DNA of 47,600 bases from Synergistaceae bacterium (GTDB lineage Bacteria; Synergistota; Synergistia; Synergistales; Aminobacteriaceae): positions 1 to 47,600 of the forward strand of contig JAFSXS010000111.1 of the NCBI GenBank assembly GCA_017443945.1, written 5' to 3'. Below, piece by piece: positions 4,347 through 18,639 of the stretch. The notes beneath the pieces were generated by a model. The model had not been told where the DNA came from. It worked only from the letters and a program-made list of their open reading frames with translations, and searched no databases. A program made the position numbers and the translations under genes. The number at the start of each line of letters is the position of its first letter. The first letter of the stretch is position 1.

Positions 4347-6201
4347 GTGAAGCAAAGACTTGCGGATTATGTAGCTGATTTTCTTGTCTCACACGGCATA
4401 AAACACTGTTTCAGTGTCGTAGGAGGCGGGGCAATGCATTTAAATGACGCGTTAGGACATAAGGACGGCCTCAAAGTAATTTATACTCATCACGAACAGG
4501 CGGCTGCAATTGCTGCGGAATCATATGCGAGACTCGATAATAATATTGCTGCTGTCTGTGTTACAACTGGGCCGGGAGGTGTGAACGCTTTAACGGGCGT
4601 ATTATGCGGCTGGCTTGACTCTATTCCCATGTTTATTATAAGCGGCCAAGTACGTTATGACACTACAGCGAGATATGCTAAAAAATTGCGCGGTATAAAT
4701 TTGCGTGCGCTCGGTGATCAGGAATACGACATAATTAATTCAGTCAAAGCAATGACAAAATACGCCGTAATGATCGAGAACCCCGAACGAATTAAATACG
4801 AACTCGAACGAGCTTATCATTTAGCGACAACAGGACGGCCCGGCCCGGTTTGGCTTGATATTCCCGTAAATTTTCAGGGCGCATATATAGAAACTAGCAA
4901 TCTTGAAAGCTATGACCCTTCAGAAGATGATAAATTACTGCCTCCCGCTGTGAGTGATGACGTTATAAAAGATGTTATCTCGCTCATAAAAGAGTCAAAA
5001 CGTCCGGTTTTATATGCAGGTTATGGCATAAGATTATCGGGCGGCTATGAAATTTTCAGGCAGTTAATCGAAAAATTAAATATTCCCGTTGTTACATACT
5101 GGAATGCGATAGATTTAATAGAGAATTCTCACAGGCTTTACACGGGCAGGGGCGGCAATATGGGCGACAGACCCGGAAATTTTGCGGTTCAGAATTCAGA
5201 TTTAGTGCTGGCAATAGGGACTCGCTTATCGATTCGTCAAGTCGGCTATAACTGGGACACATGGGCGAGGGCTGCAAAAATTATCATGGTCGACATCGAT
5301 AAAAACGAAATGAACAAGCACACTATACACGCAGATTTTAAAATATGGGCAGATGCTAAAGATTTTATGAATAAATTAAACGCTGCAATAGATCACAAAA
5401 TTTTTAATGACTCGTCATGGCTTGAGACCTGCTCAAACTGGAAAAAAAATTATCCCGTTGTATTGACTCGACACTATGAGCAGAAAAAACTTGCTAATAT
5501 ATATGCATTTATAGATTATCTCAGCAGTAAATTACATGATAAAAATTTAACGGTTGTATCAAACGGCGCGTGCTGTGTTGCAGGCAGTCAGGCATATAGA
5601 ATCAAGAAAGACGCGAGATTTATTAATAATAGCGCAACTGCTTCAATGGGCTATGGACTCCCGGCTTCAATCGGAGCATGCGTAAATTACATAGGGGGGG
5701 GGGGGGGCATCAACTGGCGCAAGGACTCAAGTAATTTGTCTCGAAGGCGACGGCAGCATAATGATGAACTTGCAGGAACTCCAGACAGTAATAACAAATA
5801 AGCTCCCTATAAAAATTTTCCTAGTAAACAATCAAGGCTATCACTCAATCAGGCAGACCCAGCGAAATTTATTCAGCAATCACACACGAGTCGGAATCGG
5901 TCCGGAGTCCGGTGATCTGTCATTCCCTGATTTCAGCAGGATTGCAACGGCGTTCGGATATAAATATTTGTGCGCTCATGATAATTCAGAGATGGAACGT
6001 GCAGTAGATGAGGCTTTAAATTTTGACGGAGCTTTATTTTGCGAAATTTTCACGGACACAGTGCAGAACTGGGAGCCCAAGAGCAGCGCAAGAAAATTAG
6101 AAGATGGGACTCTAGTAAGTTCACCGCTTGAAGATTTAGCCCCGTTTTTGCCCCGTGAAGAGTTAAAGCGCAATATGTTTATACCGTTGATTGACGAGTA
6201 A
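4347..6201 (+). pseudogene. ThDP-dependent acetolactate-synthase-like enzyme, frameshifted at a poly-G tract (possibly phase-variable)
   Basis: This is a ThDP-binding enzyme of the acetolactate synthase/benzoylformate decarboxylase superfamily. The N-terminal pyrimidine domain has THHEQAAAIAAE with the catalytic glutamate and TTGPGGVNALTG. A middle domain follows, then the C-terminal domain with CLEGDGSIMMNLQELQ, which is ThDP-Mg binding. The frame from the GTG at 4347 (AGGAGG Shine-Dalgarno at 4331-4336) runs only to 5801, because a 14-G run at 5694-5707 shifts the frame before the GDGS motif. The rest is open in the next frame up to 6201. Thirteen or sixteen G would give one protein of about 617 residues, the normal length. 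As written, translation stops after 484 residues without the cofactor motif. Substrate is unclear; similar enzymes occur in sugar or surface polysaccharide loci. Confidence 0.88.
5694..5707 (+). repeat. Homopolymer of 14 G inside the ThDP enzyme gene
   Basis: Fourteen consecutive G follow codons for NYI and precede CATCAACTGG. The tract is the exact point where the two open frames of one enzyme meet. Its length (3n+2) puts the gene out of frame, while 3n+1 would restore it. It is either a slippage-prone contingency tract or a homopolymer sequencing error. Confidence 0.9.
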
Positions 6202-16275: not shown

Positions 16276-16755
16276 ATGAAGCGTTTTATATTCGCAATTG
16301 TAATAATTATATCTCTTAGTGTAACAGCATTTGCAGATATTCCCAGCCCTGAGAGATTCAGAAAGCCCCGCCCCGTTCCTGCGACTACTGAAAATTTCAG
16401 GCCGATTCCTGTTCCTAATCGTCAGGGAGCAAGAACACGCGCAAAATTTAATTTAGTACCCGTTAAAGATCAAGATTGTGCGTTCGAACTTGCTATTAAT
16501 ATTTCTAAAGATGTCGATTATTTTATTACATTCAGGGATCTTGACTCTAAAAAAGTAATTGACTCAGTTAAAGCTAAAAGCAGCGGAGAATCTCAAATAA
16601 AGCACGTATTTAAATATAATCGTCCGGAAAAGAATCAAGAAATAAAATATTTACTTAGTGCCAAGTGTAAAGCAGAAGGCCGCCGAGAAATAAATTATAT
16701 AAAGCGCATAACTTTGTATAACGTGAACGACGTGATTTATTTCATGACGAATTAA
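16276..16755 (+). CDS. Secreted protein of unknown function
   Basis: This 159-residue protein has a clear signal peptide (MKRFIFAIVI... ending TAFA at about residue 20) and a proline-rich segment following it (PSPERFRKPRPVPATT). The remaining 100 residues look like a small beta-rich extracytoplasmic domain; no family recognised. It begins an apparent two-gene unit, since the next gene starts 3 nt after its stop. The Shine-Dalgarno (GAAAG) is weak. No lipobox or cysteine pair suggests a lipoprotein or thiol function. Confidence 0.75.
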   Translation: MKRFIFAIVIIISLSVTAFADIPSPERFRKPRPVPATTENFRPIPVPNRQGARTRAKFNLVPVKDQDCAFELAINISKDVDYFITFRDLDSKKVIDSVKAKSSGESQIKHVFKYNRPEKNQEIKYLLSAKCKAEGRREINYIKRITLYNVNDVIYFMTN

Positions 16756-16758
16756 ATA

Positions 16759-17727
16759 ATGCTATATTTGTGTACAGTCCTGCATTTTTCAGTAGACGGA
16801 CTCTGCGGGGCAGTTCTTGCAAGTTACGCCGTGAATGAGCCTGATTTTGACAAGATAATTTATTATTTCGGGCTTTACACGGTGATAGCGTTTGGGCTGC
16901 AATTTCTAGCGGGCTTGCTTCTTGATAGACGCAAAAATTTTGTGCTGCCTGCGTTTGTTGCTGCTCCTGTTTTACTTGCCGGGGGATTATTTACGAGTCT
17001 GGGAATATTTTGGCAAGTTATATTAATTGCGCTGGGTAATTGTTTATTTCATGTTTCAGCAGGAGTGTTAATTTTGACTCAATATAAAAATTTTCGTGAA
17101 CCCGGCATATTTGTATCAAGCGGTGCATTAGGTCTAGGACTTGGCCTTGCTGAGATAATAAGCGCGCCTATATTCGAGGCAATTTGCGTTATATTCACGT
17201 TGATTGCTTTATATTTCGCTAAAAAATTTAATTTCGAGCTTGAATCCATAAACGAGTCAAAATCTGAAAAAGTTTCTTGCTCGTTAATAGTCGGAGCGTC
17301 TTTATTACTTGGCTGTGTGATTTTGCGGGGCTTTGGAGGCAGTGCGAATATTGCGGGCTGTATTATGTTAATGCCGTGCGTGTTTGCTTTAGGGAAGTCG
17401 GCGGGCGGAGTGTTATGCGATTTTATAGGCTGGCGGAAAAGTATACTTGCAATTTTTTTTATGAGTTTCGCGGCTCTGCAATTATCAGGAAATTATAAAA
17501 TTATTTTGCTCGTTTTCGCGTTTAATATGACTATGCCGTTGACGTTGAGACTCTTACATAAATACTTCCCTAGTTATCCCGGCTTGACATTCGGACTTGC
17601 TGCGGGGTGCTTAGTGCCGGGGTATTTCTTGAGTGAATATTTTGCCGTGTCGCCTTATATTATGGCAGTGATTCAATTTTTGAGTCTATTTATTGCGGGA
17701 TTGATTTATGAATCGCAAAGTTCTTAA
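16759..17727 (+). CDS. MFS-like integral membrane protein
   Basis: This 322-residue protein has about ten hydrophobic helices. The inter-helix LLDRRKN near residue 60 resembles the basic loop between helices 2 and 3 of major facilitator transporters, and GWRKS near residue 220 sits in an equivalent place in the second half. It is shorter than typical 12-helix MFS proteins (about 400 residues), so it may be a minimal or divergent member. It starts 3 nt after the secreted-protein gene and is likely cotranslated with it. The transported substrate cannot be predicted. Confidence 0.7.
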   Translation: MLYLCTVLHFSVDGLCGAVLASYAVNEPDFDKIIYYFGLYTVIAFGLQFLAGLLLDRRKNFVLPAFVAAPVLLAGGLFTSLGIFWQVILIALGNCLFHVSAGVLILTQYKNFREPGIFVSSGALGLGLGLAEIISAPIFEAICVIFTLIALYFAKKFNFELESINESKSEKVSCSLIVGASLLLGCVILRGFGGSANIAGCIMLMPCVFALGKSAGGVLCDFIGWRKSILAIFFMSFAALQLSGNYKIILLVFAFNMTMPLTLRLLHKYFPSYPGLTFGLAAGCLVPGYFLSEYFAVSPYIMAVIQFLSLFIAGLIYESQSS

Positions 17728-17728
17728 C

Positions 17729-17774
17729 TATTTACTCTGTTCGCGAATGCGGACAGGGTGGGTGGGAGTAAATA
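17729..17774 (+). repeat. Stem-loop with G-rich 3' half, degenerate third member of the G-quadruplex element
   Basis: Perfect 9-bp arms TATTTACTC (17729-17737) and GAGTAAATA (17766-17774) enclose a second hairpin, TGTTCGC-GAAT-GCGGACA (17738-17755), and the motif GGGTGGGTGGG (17756-17766). It follows the MFS-like gene by 1 bp. The shared GGGTGGGTGGGA core links it to the copies at 7104 and 10397, although the arms differ and only three G-runs remain. Confidence 0.6.
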
Positions 17775-17962
17775 ACACACGATTTTGATACATATATTTA
17801 TATTTTTGCGGCTTTATTTGATTTAGACATTTCTTATTTTGTTGACTGGCTGGGAATAAATAACATACTATTTTGCGTACACATTTATACATTCAGGGGG
17901 GATCAATATTTTTACTGCGATTATTACGGCTTTGATTGAGACACCGTTATTTTACATGTCAG
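17764..17962 (+). repeat. Degenerate tandem duplication covering the 5' end of the small membrane gene
   Basis: Unit 1 (17764-17851) begins GGGAGTAAATAAC and contains GCGGCTTTATTTGATTTAGA and CTTATTTTGTTGACTGGCT. Unit 2 (17852-17962) begins GGGAATAAATAAC and contains the matching ACGGCTTTGATTGAGACA and GTTATTTTACATGTCAGGCT within the gene. Unit 2 carries about 30 extra bases, which include the Shine-Dalgarno. The upstream copy is untranslatable as a gene. Confidence 0.7.
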
Positions 17963-18237
17963 GCTATAAAAATTTTAGTAAGTGCTTATATTTTGCGGGA
18001 ATTAACATAATTACAAATTTAATGCTGAATCAATATTTAGACTCGATAACTTTTGCGGGAGATTCTCCGGAATTCATGATTATATTATTTATCAGCGAGT
18101 TTATTATAATTATGCTTGAATTTGCCCTGTGTGCCTGCGTGAATATTATGACCTCGCGAAAACTTTTTAAGACTCTTGCATTCACAAATTCTGTGAGCTT
18201 TATTCTAGGCTTGATTTATGCGTTAATAGCCTATTGA
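17908..18237 (+). CDS. Small integral membrane protein, probable non-canonical ATT start
   Basis: This membrane protein of about 109 residues has three helices, with the landmarks TALIETPLFY, SGYKNF and YFAGINIITNLMLN; it belongs to a type of small membrane protein of unknown role. The first ordinary start is a TTG at 17932, 30 bp after the only Shine-Dalgarno (AGGGGGG, 17895-17901). An ATT at 17908 lies 6 bp after it, and there is no ATG or GTG between the in-frame stop at 17857 and 17932. Starting at ATT also restores the missing first half of helix 1. Its TGA stop lies inside the -35 box of the next gene's promoter. Confidence 0.6.
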   Translation: MFTAIITALIETPLFYMSGYKNFSKCLYFAGINIITNLMLNQYLDSITFAGDSPEFMIILFISEFIIIMLEFALCACVNIMTSRKLFKTLAFTNSVSFILGLIYALIAY

Positions 18238-18264
18238 CAATGCCCCCCCCCCCCTATGTATAAT
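18234..18264 (+). promoter_or_regulatory. Consensus promoter with a 12-C tract in its spacer (candidate phase-variable promoter)
   Basis: TTGACA (18234-18239) and TATAAT (18259-18264) are perfect sigma-70 boxes separated by 19 bp, of which 18243-18254 are twelve consecutive C. Loss of two C would give the optimal 17-bp spacing. The arrangement parallels the known poly-C spacer promoters of phase-variable surface genes such as neisserial opc. The gene at 18302 begins about 30 bp after the expected transcript start. Confidence 0.85.
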
Positions 18265-18301
18265 TGCTTATATTCAAAAATTTTTTAATGGGGATGTTAT
18301 C

Positions 18302-18595
18302 ATGAAGGCCAGTAAAAAAATTGCTGTCTTGCTGCTTATCGTTATAACGTTAGGGACATGCTTTCCAAGCTCGGCACACGCTGATATGGGTCTTATTGTA
18401 GGTCTTGTTAGCTCGCTAATTGACTTAGCACTTAACGTGGTCAAATTGTGGGCTTTCTATGCGCCTGAACCCGACCCCGGTATGTCTTGGCATACGATTA
18501 TTTTATTCACTATATTATTACTGCTGGCAGTCGGCTTATATTTCCGCAAATCCCAAAAAATTTTTAGGTACTTATGGCCGGGCAACTGGCACTAA
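18302..18595 (+). CDS. Small secreted/membrane protein under the poly-C promoter
   Basis: This 97-residue protein starts with a strong signal peptide (MKASKKIAVLLLI.. cleaved near AHA, residue 27). A glycine-rich hydrophobic stretch follows, then a short linker APEPDPG, a transmembrane helix (about 65-82) and a basic aromatic C-terminus (FRKSQKIFRYLWPGNWH). No family recognised; a small surface or envelope protein is likely. The Shine-Dalgarno GGGG lies 9 bases before the ATG. It is the only gene between its promoter and a terminator, so it forms its own unit, whose expression should depend on poly-C length. Confidence 0.7.
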   Translation: MKASKKIAVLLLIVITLGTCFPSSAHADMGLIVGLVSSLIDLALNVVKLWAFYAPEPDPGMSWHTIILFTILLLLAVGLYFRKSQKIFRYLWPGNWH

Positions 18596-18615: not shown

Positions 18616-18639
18616 CCCCCTTGCTTTTACACGAGGGGG
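18616..18639. terminator. Bidirectional hairpin between convergent genes
   Basis: CCCCCTTG (18616-18623) pairs with CGAGGGGG (18632-18639) with one wobble, around an eight-base loop. It separates the gene ending at 18595 from the minus-strand gene ending at 18649. The core resembles the hairpin at 29458-29481. Confidence 0.75.

Follow-up and report, generated by a model that had tools for sequence, protein, structure and literature searches.

A run of 12 C residues stands between two consensus promoter hexamers in the 47 600-nt stretch of Synergistaceae DNA analysed here (the window), and the question that it raises is whether slippage in this run switches the gene behind it. An initial annotation had proposed a slipped-strand switch of this kind. 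We consider it probable, judging from sequence comparisons, that positions 18234-18264 form a phase-variable sigma-70-type promoter of a gene encoding a 97-aa protein and that this promoter is a member of a family found in its genus. The two boxes would flank a slippage-prone poly-C tract and drive expression of the 97-aa exported protein; replication slips would add or remove C and shift the distance between -35 and -10, and the changed distance would make the level of transcription differ among subpopulations, as in the transcriptional phase variation known from fetA and porA. We infer both the slippage in the living population and the dependence of transcription on length. In the limited collection of papers searched, phase variation by simple repeats was not described for Synergistota; the precedent there consists of inversion signatures only, in one of two tested species (PMC5903667).

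The window promoter and its gene

The boxes, the tract and the spacer were all found as the initial annotation gave them (Table 1), and on inspection the site reads ...CCTATTGACAATG-C12-TATGTATAATTGC.... The C run exceeds chance, as had been claimed, with 10 overlapping C9 matches from two tracts in the window against 0.08 expected from dinucleotide shuffles. It is an ordinary tract for its host genome (2.40 Mb in 114 contigs, hereafter G000), where many C/G runs have a similar length. As in fetA/porA-type promoters, the -35 and -10 boxes are recognisable and have a homopolymer between them, and the promoter stands at a normal distance before a translated gene, usually one for an exported or surface protein (export signals by eye).

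Table 1. Coordinates of the features discussed (window positions unless a locus is named)
Feature	Position	Strand	Remarks
Second window tract, G14	5694..5707	+	Inside thiamine-pyrophosphate (TPP) enzyme gene; frame broken
Upstream ORF for a small membrane protein, 101 aa, TTG start	17932..18237	+	Paralogue on contig C37, 80% DNA identity
-35 hexamer TTGACA	18234..18239	+	Overlaps TGA stop (18235-18237) of upstream ORF
Poly-C tract, 12 C	18243..18254	+	Within 19-bp promoter spacer 18240-18258
Flanking motif copy, G strand 5'-AGCAATTATACATA-G12-3'	18255..18268	-	Overlaps -10; PWM scores 8.9 and 9.3
-10 hexamer TATAAT	18259..18264	+	G before, T after, as in most family members
TTCAA just 3' of -10	18273..18277	+	Near match to family GTCAA
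Putative Shine-Dalgarno GGGGAT	18290..18295	+	Before ATG 18302; by eye
ORF of 97-aa small exported/membrane protein	18302..18595	+	ATG 37 bp after TATAAT
Terminator-like hairpin CCCCCTTG...CGAGGGGG	18616..18639	+	Weak T tail
Interrupted-run promoters	L239, L240, L241, L243 = G041:C332, G042:C8, G053:C14, G053:C118		20-bp spacer

Judged by eye, the N terminus of the 97-aa protein resembles a signal peptide and its C-terminal part includes a hydrophobic segment; the protein matched no Pfam family, in agreement with its earlier description as a secreted or membrane product of unassigned family. In 42 other species of the genus it had a single weak match, with 31% identity over 59 residues, and no tract was found at the locus of this sole homologue. 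That the gene stands alone between promoter and terminator was also borne out, by the hairpin with its weak T tail and by a convergent gene beyond it. Upstream, window positions 16435-18225 correspond to a paralogous cassette at G000:C37:5621-7205 (74-80% DNA identity), which comprises a membrane transporter and the 101-aa ORF; behind the cassette, contig C37 has a LicD gene that itself contains a G12 tract, where the window has the 97-aa gene.

A family of poly-C promoters with a long spacer

The pattern TTGACN{3,9}C8N{1,9}TATAAT retrieved 26 sites in 16 of the 43 species of the genus, and the reversed pattern none, so the combination of boxes and tract is beyond chance. The TTGAC-polyC-TATAAT arrangement was absent from 145 genomes of 62 other Synergistota genera. 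Shuffles, reversed control and recurrence in the genus rule out a chance or one-off origin of the window promoter. The organism names of contig matches suggest that the host genus belongs to uncultured ruminant-gut Synergistaceae.

The family has the consensus TTGACw-N3/4-C~10-wTAnCG-TATAAT-N9-GTCAA, with a G before the -10 box in 23 of 25 promoters and a T after it in 20 of 25, both shared by the window copy, which departs from the family mode in its 19-bp spacer and weak GTCAA. A start codon follows 31-45 bp downstream at most sites, commonly with a GGAGG-type ribosome site. The genes behind these promoters encode proteins with a signal peptide or lipoprotein signal (by eye), small exported proteins, glycosyltransferases (GT2; a weak glycerophosphotransferase) and one GTPase, which lies downstream of the L194 promoter and has MMR_HSR1 and IIGP matches. 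A small protein family with the pattern CHxIIH..A..AG..A.AQ.PG recurs downstream of poly-C promoters of several species, at L193, L195, L197, L211, L240 and L242, with a weak DUF697 match in one.

In 10 of 25 family members (loci including L193-L218 and L239-L243), GTCAA stands exactly 9 nt past TATAAT, possibly as an operator or as the initial transcribed sequence. Together with TTGAC it could form short inverted repeats around the -10 box in some members, as would suit a promoter inverted by site-specific recombination rather than altered by slippage. The arms, however, match each other no better than when the pairs are shuffled (z = -0.73), GTCAA keeps its distance to the -10 and not to the -35, the whole spans ~45 bp, and the window arms match over only 4 bp; we regard inversion as extremely unlikely. 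Matching inverted repeats flanking the promoter, the mark of an inverton, were not found in this pairwise comparison with shuffled arms.

The spacer of the family has its mode at 20 bp (16 of 26 sites), with 19-21 bp in 23 and 19-22 bp in 24 sites and outliers at 11 and 16 bp, whereas 16-18 bp is most frequent among the ordinary TTGACA..TATAAT sites listed for the genus (99 of 149). Tract length and the remaining spacer were strongly anticorrelated (r = -0.85, n = 24, spacers of 11 and 16 bp left out; r = -0.36 over all 26 sites), and in none of 10 000 permutations of tract and rest of spacer did the sum of the two vary as little. It is therefore the distance from box to box that is kept and not the number of C, which argues that the tract works as a promoter spacer. 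A second pattern, TTGACN{12,25}TATAATN9GTCAA, gave 16 matches against 0 for its reversed control; the spacer was C-rich in 14, and in four of the matches the run was interrupted (C6TC3, C6AC3, C3AC6 and C8AC), all at exactly 20 bp and with the other elements intact. These four appear as natural slip-resistant versions, and in three of them exported proteins are encoded downstream.

The initial annotation took 17 bp, two C fewer than in the window, as the ideal spacer. This is doubtful, since the family, copies with interrupted tracts included, stays at 20 bp and it is the ordinary promoters of the genus that have 16-18 bp; 17 bp is thus probably not the sole ON state. From the family spacers we infer, as we do the ON length itself, that 20 bp would be a set-point or working state. 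The probable reason is either the shorter geometry of a G:C homopolymer compared with normal B-DNA or a regulator that compensates for the extra length. The window copy, at 19 bp, may then be one C under this set-point instead of having two C in excess. It may also be the reverse, with 20 bp as the common OFF state. As a natural series with a C run at 20 bp, these promoters are relevant to the effect of G:C homopolymers on promoter geometry.

The narrow clustering at 20 bp counts against free switching, for which a broader spread might be expected. It raises the alternative that the promoters are a real family whose C-rich spacer has a fixed structure, either 20 bp of A-like G:C or a long stretch read through a regulator, with variation in length that is incidental and no evolved switch. 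Such a structure would account for a family near 20 bp and for the four interrupted copies at exactly that length, and the constant place of GTCAA past the -10 suggests an operator. MerR-regulated promoters have an overlong spacer of 19-20 bp, like that of the poly-C family; they differ in that no dyad operator lies inside the poly-C spacer, which consists of the C run with short AT-rich flanks. On the other hand, most copies carry pure C10-14 runs, which structure alone does not need, dozens of pure G/C runs break coding frames in the same genome, and orthologous promoters differ in tract length. Before orthologous 59-aa genes the promoter has C10 in G057 and C11 in G051 with a spacer of 20 bp in both, and in G010 a promoter closely resembling these combines C11 with a spacer of 21 bp; these comparisons are across species, with one genome per species. 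We consider a purely structural spacer unlikely for the family as a whole, and the interrupted members that keep 20 bp indicate that part of it may be a fixed promoter type.

Phase variation thus remains the preferred reading, and the arrangement agrees, as initially annotated, with known slipped-strand promoter switches, of which fetA, porA and tp0126 share the design of a homopolymer in the spacer. In Neisseria gonorrhoeae fetA (frpB), a poly-C tract between -10 and -35 ranges from C10 to C14 in strains and alters expression of a surface protein (PMC5320596). The poly-C spacer design is the same, but fetA is a single locus in an unrelated phylum, whereas here a promoter family in 16 species has a common 20-bp spacer and shared flanks. 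Neisseria meningitidis porA likewise has a homopolymer, poly-G, in its promoter spacer, where one-base changes grade expression (11G > 10G > 9G; PMC3639595); it too is one locus, and the present family differs in its poly-C and longer spacer. In Treponema pallidum tp0126, which encodes an outer-membrane protein, poly-G separates the two boxes and the optimum is reported for a spacer of 17 bp (PMC7864442), in contrast to the 20 bp kept by the present family. The proposal of a slipped-strand switch therefore stands in its core, backed by a genus-restricted family of 26 members, by spacer compensation and by the C10/C11 orthologous promoters, but its scope was incomplete along with the doubtful ideal spacer: the promoter tract is there, and it is one of 26 such promoters and about 39 genome tracts rather than a lone switch.

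C/G tracts across the genome and genus

In G000, where tracts were read from separate stretches of sequence, a pattern search gave 37 C/G runs of at least 9, 35 of them of at least 10, plus one at the start of contig C18, or about 39 in total. Only two runs end at 9, and the commonest length is 12. Runs of at least 10 numbered 0-35 per genome within the genus versus 0-5 in a sample of 16 genomes from the order's other families. Most tracts are intragenic with G on the coding strand, and 34 of the 55 tracts that have at least 60 open codons on each side (in the groups of genomes sampled) are out of frame. The tract-bearing genes include two for LicD, two GT2 glycosyltransferases, a GT10 and a weak GT87, as well as genes for a sugar-transfer ATP-grasp protein, TPP enzymes, an SDR, an Fe-dehydrogenase, a DUF2142 protein and a CDP-alcohol transferase, and this repertoire is what contingency loci would be expected to include.

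With ~39 tracts, of which the majority lie in surface-polysaccharide genes and many are out of frame, G000 therefore has genome-wide contingency loci, and most coding-region tracts would apparently be translational switches in surface-polysaccharide genes. The poly-C promoters would work beside this larger set of G tracts, which would switch surface-sugar genes by frameshift. Two reports on the Campylobacter phasome describe many phase-variable G tracts per genome in surface determinants (PMC6321876, PMC6097035). To that extent G000 is similar, the rest of its genome having many G tracts with frameshifts in surface genes in the manner of Campylobacter poly-G contingency loci, but here a conserved DNA motif precedes the tracts and MutS1 is present. 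Campylobacter is not known to have mutS or such a tract-flanking motif. Since MutS1 is present in G000 and in nearly all relatives, loss of MutS was rejected as the cause of the tracts, and slippage need not be frequent. One ruminant-gut Synergistota genus thus combines up to ~40 tracts per genome with a shared poly-C promoter class, and surface variation in these uncultured commensals is therefore testable from existing reads.

The window itself holds a second, probable translational phase-variable locus, the G14 tract in a TPP enzyme gene (Table 1), whose ORF covers 4347-5801 with another frame running onward to 6201. Another TPP gene (L044:3819-3830) has a G tract whose position is shared by its orthologues in six other genomes of the genus (L066-L069, L071/L076 and L072; lengths 10-12, ~65-67% DNA identity), which argues against a homopolymer artefact of sequencing or assembly. 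The assembly is fragmented and of metagenome type, with contigs C18 and C32 starting or ending at or beside tracts, and lengths may be off by 1-2; yet tracts occupy the same gene site in many independent species assemblies, the spacers compensate for tract length, and mid-contig tracts must be spanned by reads. An artefact is accordingly very improbable. The C18 start (L062) and the C32 end (L043) coincide with or adjoin tracts of C15 and G21. Assemblies thus break at such places, which makes the counts and lengths of tracts minimum or approximate values.

We also considered a mobile element of 25-30 bp that carried the tract in. A tract-less SDR gene (L067) aligns with a length difference of one residue, and the SDR tract therefore arose in place. 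Among the orthologues of the TPP gene, some have the flanking motif and others (L071/L076) lack it, so some tracts may have come in by copying.

A conserved motif beside the tracts

A near-palindromic motif with the consensus CGTAAAATTACGTA lies 5' of most G runs on the G strand. Among 74 tracts of the sampled genomes whose G run is on the coding strand, a motif score of at least 5 was reached on the 5' side by 80%, at the mirror position by 14% and farther off by 7%, figures that are self-trained, the coding set having also served for training; for 16 tracts outside the training set they were 44%, 25% and 6%, respectively. The motif scores 2.9 nats per sequence versus 0.6 for shuffled sequences. 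Where it occurs in the poly-C promoters it extends over the -10, with a mean of 6.0 bits versus 0.9 when shuffled, of which part is TATAAT itself. All three reading frames are used (21/16/8), and there is thus no peptide constraint; a protein-level origin of the motif was ruled out on this ground. Base-pair covariation gave no convincing hairpin in the motif, with one axis at z = 2.9 among ten tested.

The TATAAT of the window is hence also part of a motif common to intragenic tracts, and one could suppose that a generic tract with its CGTAAAATTACGTA-like motif resembles a promoter by accident, TTGACA and TATAAT being unused for transcription. The regular place of the motif 5' of coding G tracts and its inclusion of the window -10 (score 8.9) would fit. 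TTGACA, however, lies outside the motif and yet accompanies 26 tracts at a fixed distance, with a typical distance to the start codon, and we hold an accidental resemblance to be quite unlikely.

For the promoters as switches, the motif permits a further and tentative proposal, that of a dedicated contingency system in which CGTAAAATTACGTA-like motifs mark the sites where tracts are made, kept or destabilised, perhaps through a specific DNA-binding protein, together with the class of 20-bp poly-C promoters. The conserved motif beside tracts suggests that DNA sequence may specify slippage sites. No motif was found beside the tracts of G009, and tract-motif matches outside the genus were scattered; in the window and the loci, motifs without a tract were in no more than modest excess over chance, too little to be informative. 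Two runs, a C18 at L049:3967-3984 and a G10 at L059:3946-3955, are without the flanking motif and lie near other C/G-rich intergenic repeats, and they look different from the contingency tracts.
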